From: Desulfohalovibrio reitneri
GTDB lineage: Bacteria > Desulfobacterota > Desulfovibrionia > Desulfovibrionales > Desulfovibrionaceae
NCBI RefSeq assembly: GCF_000711295.1
Contig: NZ_JOMJ01000003.1
Coordinates: 261,001-325,000, forward strand
Length of the DNA: 64,000 nt
Direction: 5' to 3'
Both the position numbers and the translations under genes were made by a program. The first letter of the stretch is position 1. Each line of letters begins with the position of its first letter. The notes under the pieces are model-generated. The model made no database searches, was not told the origin of the DNA, and was given only the letters and a program-made list of their open reading frames with translations. Shown one piece after another: positions 48,106-53,475 of this stretch.

Positions 48106-49166
48106 TCGAGACACTGCGGCTGGGCGATGAGGCCGGACTGGCCCCCACCGTGGCCGGAGCGCGCACCGGCTGGCTGGGCGCGGCTGGGTACTGGCTGTTT
48201 TGCTGCTGGCTGGTCTCACCCCGGCGGAGGAATTTGCTGCCCGGCGCGCTGGCCCTGGCCCTGCTGGCCGCGCCCGTGGCCTCGGGGTGGCTTGAGCGCG
48301 GGGTGGAGGTGCGGCTTCTCGACGTGGGGCAGGGGCAGGCCGTGCTGGTGCGCGGCCCGGACGGCGGGCGCACCCTCATCGACGGCGGCGGGTTCCCGGG
48401 GGATTTCGACGTGGGCGAGGCGCTGGTGGCCCCGGCTTTGCTGGCGGACCGCTCCCCGCGCCTTCAGCGTGTGCTTTTGAGCCACCCCCAGGTGGACCAC
48501 GGCGGCGGGCTGGCCTGGGTGGCGGAACATTTCGATCCGGAGCTGTTCGCCTCCACCGGACAGACCTCGGACACCCGCTTCATGGAACGGCTGGAATCGG
48601 CGCTCAAGTCCGGAGGCATCTCCACTCGCCGCTTGCGCGCCGGGGATAAACTGGACCTGGGGCGGGGGCTGCGGCTGGAGGCGTTGCACCCGGCCGCGCT
48701 CACCGGCGACCTCAACGCCGACTCCCTGGTGCTGCGGCTTCTCTGGAACGGCCGCTCGCTGGCGCTGCTGCCGGGCGATGTGGAGGGCGAGGGGCTGAAG
48801 ACCCTGCTGCGGCGCGAGGCGAACCTGTCCGCCGAACTGCTGGTGCTTCCCCACCACGGCAGCGACAACAGCCTCTCCCCCGCGCTGTACGATCGGGCGG
48901 ACCCGCGAGTCGCCGCCGCCTCCTGCGGCTACCTGGGCCGCTTCGATTTTCCCGGCCCCAAGGTGCGGGCGGCCATGGCCCGCCGGGGTGTTCCCCTGCT
49001 GACCACCGCATCGCGCGGCGAACTCGCCTTCCGCTGGCAAGCCCCTGACGCGCCGCTGGAAATCCGCACCCGGCTGCCCGCCCCTTTCCCCCGGGATGCT
49101 TGCCAAATCGGACGGGTGGGCCTACCCTCCAGACCATGGTTCAAGCTCTCCGCCTTCTCGCCCTGA
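48102..49166 (+). CDS. ComEC/Rec2, C-terminal helices plus metallo-beta-lactamase part
   Basis: The 354-residue product carries the final two or three helices and the ComEC metallo-beta-lactamase-like domain (LLDVGQGQAVLVRGP, SHPQVDHGGGL, LPHHGSDNS), which is thought to degrade the non-transported strand. It starts with an ATG that overlaps the stop of the upstream half (ATGA). Together the two add up to about 829 residues, close to a complete ComEC. Its end overlaps the next gene by 31 bp. Confidence 0.8.
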   Translation: MIETLRLGDEAGLAPTVAGARTGWLGAAGYWLFCCWLVSPRRRNLLPGALALALLAAPVASGWLERGVEVRLLDVGQGQAVLVRGPDGGRTLIDGGGFPGDFDVGEALVAPALLADRSPRLQRVLLSHPQVDHGGGLAWVAEHFDPELFASTGQTSDTRFMERLESALKSGGISTRRLRAGDKLDLGRGLRLEALHPAALTGDLNADSLVLRLLWNGRSLALLPGDVEGEGLKTLLRREANLSAELLVLPHHGSDNSLSPALYDRADPRVAAASCGYLGRFDFPGPKVRAAMARRGVPLLTTASRGELAFRWQAPDAPLEIRTRLPAPFPRDACQIGRVGLPSRPWFKLSAFSP

Positions 49167-49612
49167 GCCTGCTTCTGGCCGTCCCGGCCATAGCCGCGGG
49201 CGACGATTTCAAGCACTGCCACGAGCCTTTCACCTCGCCGCCTGTGAGCATCCACGGCTCCTCCGAGGCCCGGCACGACGTGGACGTGAAGCTGCCTCCC
49301 TCCTGCCAGGGCAAGGATGTCCGGGTGACCTATTCGGGAGGCGAGGAGCGGCAGTACGCTGTCTGCGAATTCGAGGTGGCCTACGCCTCGGGTGGCTCCT
49401 CCAGGCCGGTGGAGGTGCTGGTGGAGGGCCTGGAGTCCGGCACTGTCGTCCTGGAGTCCGCCGTGAACGAGCCAGGACGGCAAGTGCGCGGCTCCTGTCT
49501 AGCCGAGAACGAGTACCGGGCCATGCGCGTCACCGTGTGCGTCTCCTGCGGTGGCGACGCAGAGGAGCGGAAAGCGTTCGAAAAGGAGCTTGAGCGATTC
49601 CTGGACTACTGA
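49136..49612 (+). CDS. Secreted cysteine-containing protein, paralogue A, 158 aa
   Basis: I do not recognise this family. The precursor has a signal peptide (about 1-20, ending AIA-AG) and a mature domain with six or so cysteines, the motif YASGGSS and a C-terminal CLAENEYRAMRV-VCVSC stretch. The next gene shares these motifs, so the two are tandem duplicates. Its start lies within the end of the comEC C-terminal part, suggesting coupling. No lipobox or membrane segment beyond the signal is present. Confidence 0.72.
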   Translation: MVQALRLLALSLLLAVPAIAAGDDFKHCHEPFTSPPVSIHGSSEARHDVDVKLPPSCQGKDVRVTYSGGEERQYAVCEFEVAYASGGSSRPVEVLVEGLESGTVVLESAVNEPGRQVRGSCLAENEYRAMRVTVCVSCGGDAEERKAFEKELERFLDY

Positions 49613-49638: not shown

Positions 49639-50118
49639 TTGTGGACCGCGCTTCTCCCGGTGGCCTGCCTGCTGGCGGCCTCTCCGGCGTATGGCGGGGA
49701 ACTGGACTTCTGCTTGGTCAACTGGCGGGCGGGACCGGCGGCCACCAATCCGGACAGGGAGGTTATTCGCTCGGTGGTCAAGCCGGTGCCCGAGGACTGC
49801 CGGAACCATCCCCTGCGTTTCACCCTGCTGGGCATGAGCCCCAGCCAGCGGGCCAGGTGCACCTTGCGAGCGACCTACGCGTCGGGAGGGTCCTCCGCCA
49901 AGGTCAAGGCGGCCGTGGACGGCCGGGAATCGGTCTCCGGCGAGTTGGAGACCGTCGAGGAAGAGCCCGGCCGCAGCGTGGAGGTGACCTGCCTGGCGGA
50001 TGATCCCTACCGGGAGATGCACCTCTCAGTGTGCGTCTCCTGCGACCTCGCGGCAACCCCCGATCCGCTGGGCGGCGACGAATTCAGAATAGAGTTGGGG
50101 GAGTTCCTCAGCAAATAG
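49639..50118 (+). CDS. Secreted cysteine-containing protein, paralogue B, 159 aa
   Basis: The precursor has a signal peptide ending near AYG-GE and shares with paralogue A the motif YASGGSS, an EPGRSVEVTCLAD block and a DPYREM..VCVSC end. The family is unknown. The start is a TTG at 49639; an earlier start was not convincing. It lies 26 bp after paralogue A and its 3' end overlaps the convergent symporter gene by 11 bp. Confidence 0.7.
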   Translation: MWTALLPVACLLAASPAYGGELDFCLVNWRAGPAATNPDREVIRSVVKPVPEDCRNHPLRFTLLGMSPSQRARCTLRATYASGGSSAKVKAAVDGRESVSGELETVEEEPGRSVEVTCLADDPYREMHLSVCVSCDLAATPDPLGGDEFRIELGEFLSK

Positions 50119-51037
50119 GCGGCCGTCCGCGCGACCACAGCCGCGCCAGGACAATGCCCACCAAGTTCTGCTGCAGGGAGAAGAGCGCGCCGGGCAGGGC
50201 ATGGGCCGCGCCGAAGAACTTGCCCGCCAGGGCCACCCCCAGCCCCGAGTTCTGCATGCCCACCTCGATGGACACGGTGCGGGCGGTGACGCGGTCGAAG
50301 CCCAGCAGCCGCGTCAGTCCGTAGCCCGCGCCGAATCCCGCCAGGTTGTGCACCACCACGGCCAGGGCCACCAGCCAGGGCAGGGCCAGGATGGTGGCCT
50401 GGTTGAGCCCCACCACGCAGGCGATGATGGCCGAGATGGTCAGGATGGAGACGGAGGGGAATACCCGCAGCACCGGGGTCAGCCTGTGCCGCAGCAGCCT
50501 GCGCAGAATCAGGCCGTCGAACAGGGGGAAGGCGGTTATCCAGAATACCGACTCGGCCATGGAGCGCCAGTCCACGGCGATGCGCGCTCCCTCCAGCCAG
50601 TGCACCAGGGTGGGGGTGAGGATGGGGGCCAAGGCGGTGGAGCAGAAGGTCATGACCACGGACAGGGCGGTGTCCGAGCGGGAAAGATAGGCGATGACGT
50701 TGGAGGCCGTGCCGCCGGGGCAGGCCCCGACAAGCACCAGCCCCAGGGCTGCCTCGGGAGGCAGATGCAGGGCGCGGGCGGTGGCCCAGGCCAAAAGCGG
50801 CATGGCCCCGAACTGCAGCGCCGCGCCCACCAGCACGGCGGGCCAGCGGGGCAGCACCGCCTTGAAGTCGGCGGGTTCCAGGCTCATGCCCATGCCGAAC
50901 ATGATGATGCCTAGCCCCAACGGGATGTGCGGGGCCAGCCAGGTGAACAGCGGCGGATGGAGCAGGGCGGCCAGGGAAAAGCCAACGGCCAGGGGCAGAA
51001 AGCCCCGCTCCACGCAGGCCGCCGCCCGGTTCAGCAC
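50108..51037 (-). CDS. Bile-acid:sodium symporter (BASS) family protein
   Basis: A 309-residue membrane protein with about nine or ten helices. It has the GMGMSLEPADF and GACPGGTASNVIAYLSRSD segments of the BASS family and the VGMQNSGLGVALA motif near the end. Substrates in bacteria include organic acids and sulfur compounds; none can be assigned. It has a GTG start that overlaps the TtuA-like stop by 7 bp, so it is translated with that gene. Confidence 0.9.
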   Translation of the reverse strand: MLNRAAACVERGFLPLAVGFSLAALLHPPLFTWLAPHIPLGLGIIMFGMGMSLEPADFKAVLPRWPAVLVGAALQFGAMPLLAWATARALHLPPEAALGLVLVGACPGGTASNVIAYLSRSDTALSVVMTFCSTALAPILTPTLVHWLEGARIAVDWRSMAESVFWITAFPLFDGLILRRLLRHRLTPVLRVFPSVSILTISAIIACVVGLNQATILALPWLVALAVVVHNLAGFGAGYGLTRLLGFDRVTARTVSIEVGMQNSGLGVALAGKFFGAAHALPGALFSLQQNLVGIVLARLWSRGRPPIC

Positions 51038-51936
51038 GCCGCCTCCCGAACCGCCTCCCGCATGGCGCAGACCGTGCAGGTCTCGCGCTGTGTGGGAAAA
51101 CCGCAGGTCAGGCAGGGGGACAGATCCGGCGGGGCCTCCCTGGCCTTTTCAAAGGCGGGACGGCCCCGCTTGAGGAAGTTTTCGTAGAATTGCAGCTTGG
51201 CCCCGGGACTCCGTTCCTCCAGGCCCGCCAGCAGTTCCTTGTGGTGGGTGAAGGAGGCGCCGGGGGAGTAGGGGCAGGCGGCGGTGCCGTGGTCGATGCC
51301 CGCCAGGAAGGCGTAGGCCGCGGTCTCGTACTCGCCCAGCCGGTACAGCGGCTTGATGCGGCGGGCGAACCCTTGCCTCGCGGGCATCACCGGCCCCTGG
51401 TCGGCAAGGTAGGCGTCGTCCCAGCGCAGGGTGTTGGCGAACAGCCTGGCGGTTTCGTCGTCGAGGTTGTGGCCGGTGGCCAGGGCCTCGAAGCCGCCGT
51501 CCATGGCCGCCTTGTTGAAGAGGTGGCGCTTAATGGCCCCGCAGGCGGCGCAGACCGGCCGGGTCAGGCATTCCTTGATCAAGGGGATGGCCAGCCCCTC
51601 CTCCGGGGCGGAGGCCACCTGGAGGGGGATGGATTCACGCTGGCAGAAGGCATCCACCTTGCCGAGCACCTGGTCCGAGGAGCCAGCGATGCCCAGGTAG
51701 ACGTGCAGGCCGGTGATGTCGTGCCCCTGCCTGGCCAGTTCGCGGGCCAGGCCCAGGGAGTCCTTGCCGCCGGACAGGGCGACCAGAACCCGTTCGCCGG
51801 GGCGGATCATGGAGTGGTCCTTGATGGCTTTGGCCACCTGGCGGGAGAAAAATACGTCGAAACACTCCGGGCAGAAGCCGGTGTGGTGGGAGGGCAGCTT
51901 GACCTGGGCGGTTGCGCGGCAGCGGCGGCACTTCAA
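51031..51936 (-). CDS. TtuA/Ncs6-like tRNA 2-thiolation ATPase
   Basis: The 301-residue protein has N- and C-terminal zinc fingers (C3, C6, C22, C25 and C275, C278, C287, C290), the PP-loop SGGKDS (55-60) and cluster ligands C129, C132 and C221, matching the [4Fe-4S] sites of Thermus TtuA (C130, C133, C222). TtuA-type enzymes adenylate a uridine and insert sulfur. The TTG at 51936 lies just after the ThiS-like stop and gives the family's zinc-finger start. The modified tRNA position here is not known. Confidence 0.86.
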   Translation of the reverse strand: MKCRRCRATAQVKLPSHHTGFCPECFDVFFSRQVAKAIKDHSMIRPGERVLVALSGGKDSLGLARELARQGHDITGLHVYLGIAGSSDQVLGKVDAFCQRESIPLQVASAPEEGLAIPLIKECLTRPVCAACGAIKRHLFNKAAMDGGFEALATGHNLDDETARLFANTLRWDDAYLADQGPVMPARQGFARRIKPLYRLGEYETAAYAFLAGIDHGTAACPYSPGASFTHHKELLAGLEERSPGAKLQFYENFLKRGRPAFEKAREAPPDLSPCLTCGFPTQRETCTVCAMREAVREAAC

Positions 51937-51940
51937 GGCT

Positions 51941-52138
51941 CTACCCCCTGGAACGCACCGGCCGCACGAGGATTTCATCCCCGTTGTCCAGGTGCCTGTC
52001 CGAAGTCAGCAGTTCGTCCCCTCGGATGACCAAGGCGTCGGTCTCCCGCAGGTTCAGGACATTGAGGAGCTTGCGCACGGTGCGCACGCCGTGCATTTCG
52101 TGGGCCTCGGTTTCCGGTTCGACGCGTACGTGGAGCAT
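51941..52138 (-). CDS. ThiS/MoaD-like ubiquitin-fold sulfur carrier
   Basis: A 65-residue protein with the beta-grasp pattern (VRTVRKLLNVLNLRE, VIRGDELLTSD, DGDEILVRPV-type end). It ends in RSRG, so the usual GG terminus is RG; the final glycine remains. It lies directly before the TtuA-like gene (4 nt apart), so it is the likely sulfur carrier (TtuB-like) for it. The missing first glycine could affect adenylation by an E1-like enzyme; none is nearby. Confidence 0.8.
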   Translation of the reverse strand: MLHVRVEPETEAHEMHGVRTVRKLLNVLNLRETDALVIRGDELLTSDRHLDNGDEILVRPVRSRG

Positions 52139-52283: not shown

Positions 52284-52670
52284 ATGGCCGAACCTGAGAA
52301 GAAAGTGCTCGTAGTCGATGACGAGAAGCATATCCGCATGCTCTATCGCGAGGAGTTGGAGGCCGAGGGCATGACCGTGGCCACCTCCAGCGGCGAAGAG
52401 GACATCCTGGAACTGCTTGAGCGGGAGAAACCCAAGGTGGTCATCCTGGACATCAAGCTGGGGGCCAACCGCTCCGGGCTTGACCTGTTGCAGGAGATAC
52501 GCTCCCAGGACCAGGACCTGCCGGTCATCCTCTCTACCGCCTACGACTCCTTTCAGCACGACCTCAAATCCATCGCTGCGGATTACTACGTGGTCAAGTC
52601 GGTGGACCTGAGCGAACTCAAGTCCAAGGTCGACCTGGCCATGAAGAAGGCCCTTTCCCAGAAGCACTAG
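52284..52670 (+). CDS. Stand-alone response-regulator receiver domain
   Basis: A 128-residue CheY-like protein with DDE at the acidic pocket (LVVDDEK), phospho-acceptor D in VVILDIKLG near residue 53, STAYD in place of the usual Thr/Ser region and K in YYVVKSVDLSELK. No output domain is present. Good GGAGG before the ATG at 52284. It lies alone, divergent from the ThiS-like gene; the cognate kinase is unknown. Confidence 0.92.
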   Translation: MAEPEKKVLVVDDEKHIRMLYREELEAEGMTVATSSGEEDILELLEREKPKVVILDIKLGANRSGLDLLQEIRSQDQDLPVILSTAYDSFQHDLKSIAADYYVVKSVDLSELKSKVDLAMKKALSQKH

Positions 52671-52695
52671 CCCCGGCTGCCAACCCGCCTGGAAC

Positions 52696-52731
52696 GCGGC
52701 CCGGACGCCGAGCGCGCCCGGGCCGCTTCTT
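52696..52731 (+). terminator. Probable terminator of the receiver gene
   Basis: A 9-bp GC stem (GCGGCCCGG and CCGGGCCGC) with a 13-nt loop is followed by TTCTT. The T-run is short, so it is a weak or factor-assisted terminator. Confidence 0.55.
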
Positions 52732-52836
52732 GCCCTTCCGCCCCCTTTCTGCTAGCAGCCTGTGGACGATTGTCCCGCTGGCCGCGCCGTTTCCGCGCGG
52801 CCGCTTTCAGCCCGCCAAGAGGATCCGCCAAACCCC

Positions 52837-53475
52837 ATGCTTGAATTCGACCTGGCCCGTACCCTGCAAAAGCTCGCGCTCATCCTGCCCGGGTTTTTGC
52901 TGGCCATCACCTTCCACGAAGCGGCCCACGGCTACGTGGCCTACCGACTCGGCGACCCAACGGCCAAGTTCGCGGGCCGGCTGACCCTCAACCCGCTGAA
53001 GCATCTGGATGTTGTCGGAACATTGGTTTTGGTCATCACCCAGCTCATTGGCTGGGCCAAGCCGGTGCCGGTCAACCCGCGCTTCTTCAAGGATCCGCGC
53101 AAGGGTATGATGCTGGTTGGGTTGGCTGGACCCATGACCAATTTCCTTCTGGCCGCCGTGCTGTCACAGCTATTCGCCGTGCTGGCCTCGCTGCAAGTGG
53201 CCGACCCCACCATGCGCTCCATACTGGTGCCCCTGGCGGGCATCTGCCAATGGGGCATGCTCATCAACCTGGTGCTGGGCTGCTTCAACCTGCTGCCCAT
53301 CCCGCCCCTGGACGGCAGCAACGTGCTCTCCTACTTTCTCCCGCGCCAGGCGGCCTACCAGTACGAATCCCTGGGCCGCTACGGCTTCATCATCGTCATT
53401 CTGCTGGCCGTGACAGGCATGCTGGGGGAAATCCTGCTGCCGATGGTCAATTTCCTCGCCAACCTGCTTTTGTAA
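52837..53475 (+). CDS. Site-2 protease family membrane metalloprotease (M50)
   Basis: A 212-residue intramembrane protease with the zinc motif HEAAH near residue 26 and the third ligand in NLLPIPPLDGS, plus four to six helices. This minimal M50 form lacks PDZ or CBS domains. It may cut anti-sigma factors or clear membrane peptides. It sits 10 bp before trpS, a pairing that may be simple cotranscription. Confidence 0.9.
   Translation: MLEFDLARTLQKLALILPGFLLAITFHEAAHGYVAYRLGDPTAKFAGRLTLNPLKHLDVVGTLVLVITQLIGWAKPVPVNPRFFKDPRKGMMLVGLAGPMTNFLLAAVLSQLFAVLASLQVADPTMRSILVPLAGICQWGMLINLVLGCFNLLPIPPLDGSNVLSYFLPRQAAYQYESLGRYGFIIVILLAVTGMLGEILLPMVNFLANLLL

Follow-up and report, generated by a model that had tools for sequence, protein, structure and literature searches.

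A gene for a TtuA-type enzyme follows, in the DNA studied here, a gene for a small TtuB-like carrier whose tail reads S-x-G in place of the S-G-G of Thermus thermophilus TtuB, and comparison across the order suggests that such a carrier and its TtuA constitute a variant on the known TtuA/TtuB pairs. The genes lie in a window of 64,000 nucleotides from Desulfohalovibrio reitneri, "window" meaning the whole stretch of DNA that was analysed. We read them as a tRNA 2-thiolation pair of the TtuA/TtuB type in which the carrier would be uncoupled from E1 enzymes, sulfide would feed the reaction and the carrier tail would act as a partner of the active site; as a whole, and on the ground of comparative sequence analysis, mostly of draft genomes, we give this reading an even chance. 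Its parts differ in strength: the carrier is probably uncoupled from E1, and the odds that sulfide is the donor, with the carrier carrying no sulfur, lie slightly below even. It also seems rather likely that a ubiquitin-fold carrier lineage, fixed across a bacterial order, serves its tRNA thiolase independently of any E1, be it as a former carrier turned gating or structural subunit of a sulfide-using TtuA or with a thiocarboxylate received by a non-E1 route. The features concerned are the following.

51941..52138, minus strand: gene for a TtuB-like ubiquitin-fold (beta-grasp) carrier, 65 aa, tail V-R-S-R-G
51944..51958, minus strand: codons of the carrier tail V-R-S-R-G (GTG CGT TCC AGG GGG)
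51031..51936, minus strand: gene for a predicted TtuA-type [4Fe-4S] PP-loop tRNA 2-thiolase, 301 aa
51757..51774, minus strand: PP-loop SGGKDS, in which S55 and D59 of T. thermophilus TtuA are kept
51541..51552, minus strand: CxxC of the [4Fe-4S] site (C130 and C133 of T. thermophilus TtuA)
51526..51540, minus strand: GAIKR, with the lysine equivalent to K137
51265..51282, minus strand: AACPYS, with the third cluster cysteine (C222 of T. thermophilus TtuA)
51067..51114, minus strand: C-terminal zinc site CxxC...CxxC
50108-51037, minus strand: gene for a transporter of SBF type (bile acid:sodium symporter family), which overlaps the stop of ttuA

The ttuA frame starts with a TTG (51936-51934) and stops at 51031. 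Its product has the LIM and PP-loop domains of TtuA and keeps S55, D59, the cluster cysteines C130, C133 and C222, K137, D161 and both zinc sites (Thermus numbering), so that the match of cluster and zinc cysteines to TtuA claimed in an earlier note on this DNA holds, with the one qualification that the zinc ligand H25 is replaced by cysteine. This replacement is found in each of the order's 60 TtuA rows that could be read, the window included, and position 137 is lysine in the same 60 of 60. The best solved relatives are T. thermophilus TtuA (5gha/5b4e, E 6e-67) and, at E 1e-60, Pyrococcus horikoshii TtuA (5mko), both matching over nearly the full length. The TtuA equivalog NCBIfam NF049949, a model whose name suggests Pyrococcus-type TtuA, gives 222 bits (E 8e-66), short of its cut-off of 450 bits. 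The T. thermophilus system TtuA/TtuB/TtuC, which makes 2-thioribothymidine 54, thus shares its PP-loop, cluster and zinc residues with the window except for H25C; T. thermophilus is a thermophile, whereas the window's order is taken to consist mostly of sulfidogenic anaerobes and not of thermophiles.

The carrier frame runs from an ATG at 52138 to a TAG at 51943-51941 and encodes MLHVR...VRPVRSRG; four nucleotides (AGCC) separate its stop from the TTG of ttuA. Against the Pfam ThiS/MoaD family PF02597 it scores 15.1 bits, below the gathering cut-off of 22.5, which two of its relatives exceed (G004 with 23.4 bits, G401 with 25.9 bits). A profile built from 36 relatives (A1) has TtuB as its top PDB match (E 2.5e-7), and the alignment is ungapped through the last residue, with ISGG of TtuB opposite VTSrG. 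The AF2 model of the carrier (mean pLDDT 90, tail less certain) is closest to TtuB as well, with Z 11.1 and 1.6 A across 64 residues, and reaches Z 9.3 with SAMP2. The beta-grasp fold, TtuB as nearest solved relative and the linkage to ttuA all bear out the ThiS-like carrier just upstream of the TtuA-like gene that had been noticed from the sequence. The C-terminal Gly-Gly of TtuB is missing: the window has Arg-Gly at this place. The beta-grasp fold is common to the carriers ThiS, MoaD, SAMP2 and Urm1 (with the E1 enzymes ThiF, MoeB and Uba4), which according to extracts of PMC5372717 and PMC2948915 end in GG and use an E1, whereas the window carrier ends in RG.

In the known systems, as described in extracts of PMC7138817, TtuA holds TtuB by its C-terminal thiocarboxylate, bound to the free iron, and uses sulfide as well; K137 is needed in T. 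thermophilus for mobilising sulfur from TtuB, although a K137R variant is functional too. The same extracts state that organisms having ttuB depend on TtuB as donor, hold ttuB to accompany low cytosolic sulfide, and describe T. maritima, with Arg at TtuA position 137, as a sulfide user said to be without ttuB. For TtuA systems lacking TtuB, direct use of sulfide has been reported or proposed (PMC7138817, PMC6225789, both in extract); the window differs from them in that a TtuB-like protein accompanies TtuA. In Methanococcus maripaludis, NcsA, a [4Fe-4S] PP-loop thiolase like the window TtuA, can use inorganic sulfide to thiolate tRNA in vitro (extract of PMC10067955), but it acts on U34 and is more distant in sequence (6scy, E 7e-26). 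In T. kodakarensis, carriers can be replaced by elemental sulfur (extract of PMC11323500).

Of the 297 genomes in the window's order, 274 have TtuA and 265 the carrier. Both occur together in 264 genomes, TtuA alone in 10, the carrier alone in one and neither in 22 (p=1e-24). Family f3 accounts for seven of the ten genomes having TtuA only, and its TtuA (three tree rows) falls outside the main TtuA clade. The carrier is broken in the single carrier-only genome (G221), and a genome counted as holding both (G205) has remnants. Between carrier and E1, in contrast, there is no association: both are present in 255 genomes, E1 alone in 30, the carrier alone in 10 and neither in 2 (p 0.63). On this comparison of gene content the carrier is shown to track TtuA rather than E1. 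As side observations, G205 (locus L157) and G221 (L156) are small genomes with remnants of the carrier gene, in which TtuA is missing or a weak match is left; and 14 of the 22 genomes without TtuA and carrier, belonging to genera g3, g25 and g27, hold an E1 at E 4e-78 or better, these very high-scoring E1s being unlike those usual in the order. A peptide-pattern search of genome contigs yielded two loci only, and the two named records found in the order are Pseudodesulfovibrio.

The unusual tail is a property of the order. The tail was read at 177 carrier loci, from 175 of the 265 genomes that have a carrier (those fetched, best-scoring favoured, with G181 and G188 counted twice); 176 end in S-x-G, x being R in 74, A in 42, S in 25, V in 17, T in 9, K in 8 and L in one, never Gly; the serine and the last glycine are invariant in these 176. 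The sole exception is an f3 locus, where SGG is followed by eight further residues. The survey covered 195 loci, of which 18 had no carrier at E 1e-6: for 13 of them the carrier of the same genome was read at another locus, three (L068, L069, L071) are f3 genomes without carrier, and the last two are the remnants L156 and L157. The RG end without the usual first glycine, which the earlier note had pointed out, is therefore neither peculiar to the window nor a sequencing error at the C terminus, a possibility the note had held open against itself and which the 176 of 177 loci exclude. Nor, judged by eye, would slipping by one base in the window's run of Gs produce an S-G-G stop. Fusion of carrier and TtuA by frameshift was considered and dropped, since the spacing varies among genomes and is not conserved. 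The canonical ThiS/MoaD proteins of the order, by comparison, end in GGG in all 13 read, the window genome's own MoaD-like protein included.

TtuA is present in 49 of 198 genomes of the wider phylum; 42 TtuA genomes lie outside the window's family, and 23 of their loci were read. The tail is SGG in 12 of these 23, in one of them with two additional residues, and five have no carrier within 1.5 kb of TtuA. In family f44 four loci end SKG or SRG, and in family f16 the two carriers (L120, L121) adjoin TtuA and end AKR and AEK, with no terminal glycine. On the TtuA tree, S-x-G is placed as one change on one branch (SH-aLRT 94, just under the star of the tool) and loss of the terminal glycine as a separate second change; by this comparison the tail is shown to have gone from S-G-G to S-x-G with a single origin. 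Sixteen rows, mostly near-copies plus two fragments, had been omitted from the tree by hand; for Thermus, the presence of an E1 was entered on the basis of published work. Because the tail changed in a single event, its link with loss of E1 is not a set of independent cases.

A ThiF-family E1 exceeds the cut-off in 285 of the order's 297 genomes. Two E1-like frames occur in the genome from which the window comes, so E1-independence there is extrapolated from relatives. At locus L003 (G000:C4:72092) an open frame of 746 aa contains an E1-like domain, and the second half of this frame resembles another enzyme domain. No E1 over the cut-off was found in 12 of the 297 genomes, and 10 of the 12 keep the carrier, all with an S-x-G tail. 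Rescoring with every candidate included covered 11 of the 12 and turned up matches no longer than 46 model positions, none of them over the cut-off; for the twelfth, G295, the call comes from the first search. Completeness of the ten is 99% for G105, G191 and G202, 98% for G170, 96% for G288 (4% contamination), 91% for G067 and G246, 87% for G250, and 82% for G066 and G295. All ten have TtuA, although that of G295 is split into two pieces lying in different frames and that of G246 runs into a contig end. Likewise, no E1 passes the cut-off in three of the four genomes of f44, where carriers end SKG or SRG: G334 (99% complete, in one contig), G401 (100%) and G429 (99%). In G369, the remaining one, an E1 is present and ThiS/MoaD gives no match. 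Altogether, 13 genomes without recognisable E1 hold an S-x-G carrier, one of them assembled as a single contig. Such cases are spread over several genera and, apart from G334, are drafts. In f16, neither of the two TtuA-bearing genomes has an E1 over the cut-off, and TtuA has Arg at position 137 at both loci. An E1 was found in 12 of 12 outgroup genomes with an SGG partner and in 5 of 5 without a carrier beside TtuA.

Canonical carriers were searched with PF02597 in 14 E1-less and 16 E1-bearing genomes. They are present in 15 of the 16, G369 being the exception, and absent from 13 of the 14. An S-x-G carrier is present in twelve of the 14, among which only G250, which probably lacks sequence, also has a canonical ThiS/MoaD. 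Four of the remaining 13 are without any PF02597 match and the others have short matching segments within frames longer than 700 residues, which we take to be the TGS part of RelA/SpoT; these long-frame matches were read in eight E1-less genomes, one in G401 being left out. The matches in G401 include its own S-x-G carrier, and weak unclassified ones are left in G246 and G401. Where E1 is absent, then, so are the canonical clients, but the TtuA partner has stayed. The suggestion that this sulfur-transfer pair has a changed activation thus gains comparative support from S-x-G and the E1-less carriers, and its bolder form, perhaps no classic E1 step, gains some from the S-x-G carriers of the 13 genomes, 11 of 12 tested being without canonical GG carriers; for the window itself it stands by extension from relatives.

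In the mechanism that we propose, the PP-loop of TtuA would adenylate the target uridine, and sulfur bound to the free iron of the [4Fe-4S] cluster would then be transferred, as judged from known TtuA and NcsA enzymes and from the conserved residues. The sulfur in this clade would most likely be free sulfide. The carrier would be kept as a dedicated partner, its single C-terminal glycine entering the active site without an E1-made thiocarboxylate, and the tail might be, for example, a gate or a removable ligand of the cluster. That sulfide is the donor and the carrier a partner appears most likely because the carrier is kept without E1, and because the f16 carrier without glycine stands beside a TtuA having Arg 137. 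Several observations count against uncoupling: the last glycine is invariant in the 176 S-x-G carriers, as expected for the bearer of a thiocarboxylate; Lys 137, present in 60 of 60 rows, has the known role of mobilising sulfur from TtuB-COSH; E1 is found in most of the order, with two E1-like frames in the window genome, and in G369 of f44, which has no ThiS/MoaD match; organisms with ttuB are stated, in extracts of PMC7138817, to depend on TtuB as donor; and the E1-less genomes are drafts except G334, with TtuA broken up in G295 and G246.

The invariant glycine and Lys 137 suggest that the tail still enters the active site, and this leaves room for the carrier to be a thiocarboxylate donor after all, its single glycine being activated by an unknown ligase or by TtuA itself rather than by E1. 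TtuA is a PP-loop ATPase that already makes adenylates, the serine before the variable residue is as invariant as the glycine, K137 is kept as Lys, and carrier and TtuA go together in 264 of 297 genomes. We nevertheless consider this unlikely: no partner gene is common to the neighbourhoods of TtuA-less carriers (10 loci, by eye), both f16 carriers adjoin TtuA without having a terminal glycine, and E1 is stated in extracts of PMC2948915 to be required in all known Ubl pathways. Somewhat less likely still is an ordinary TtuB, accepted with its S-x-G tail by the ThiF/MoeB-like E1 of the cell, the E1-less genomes being incomplete or decaying exceptions. The terminal glycine that such an enzyme would use is present, E1 passes the cut-off in 285 of 297 genomes, with two in the window genome, and G250 (87% complete), without E1 but with a GGG carrier, looks as an assembly gap would make it look. 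Carrier and E1 are however statistically unlinked (p 0.63), the E1-less cases fall in several genera, one on a single contig, and lack the canonical GG carriers in 13 of 14 searched; the canonical carriers of the same order keep GGG in 13 of 13 read, and mutations of the GG motif in MoaD homologues are said, in extracts of PMC5694649, to reduce sulfur transfer strongly.

It is very improbable that the ttuA ribosome site, and not protein chemistry, dictates the penultimate codon of the carrier. The window does have AGGGGG 7 nt before the ttuA TTG, a candidate ribosome site, and AGA or AGG make up 40 of 77 Arg codons at the penultimate position (three f44 rows included). Codons for Ala, Val and Thr, on the other hand, create no such site, S-x-G is also found in carriers without TtuA in the fetched locus, and the outgroup loci L110 and L112 join GGA GGG with an S-G-G tail; at most, Arg versus Ala would be explained. 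The preference for Arg may come partly from the ttuA ribosome site, which leaves the other residues unexplained.

For the uncoupled pair, a carrier retained after E1 and the canonical carriers have gone would be a natural exception to the usual E1 rule and, if the reading is true, the S-x-G pair would be an intermediate stage between a TtuB charged by E1 and a TtuA that uses sulfide directly. A changed TtuB in presumed sulfidogenic bacteria would make the low-sulfide idea put forward in the extracts of PMC7138817 directly testable. In a non-exhaustive search of titles and abstract beginnings we found no earlier report of S-x-G partners of TtuA; among the papers joining TtuA/TtuB or tRNA thiolation with Desulfovibrio or sulfate reducers, PMC6345978 has the term in its reference list only.

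A new shared partner gene was sought beside carriers separated from TtuA; inspection of 10 such loci by eye showed neighbours common only within L128/L132 and within L146/L150/L151. The SBF transporter was set aside as well, since it stands beside TtuA in 4 of 118 loci, namely the window and three relatives. Farther on, two adjacent small proteins (49100-49612 and 49639-50118, plus strand) look similar to each other and have, by eye, signal-like N-termini; neither has a Pfam match. On the other side, a divergent response regulator and an M50 protease (52284-53475, plus strand) adjoin the pair, and related response regulator and M50 protease genes occur in 51 and 28 of the 118 loci, respectively.
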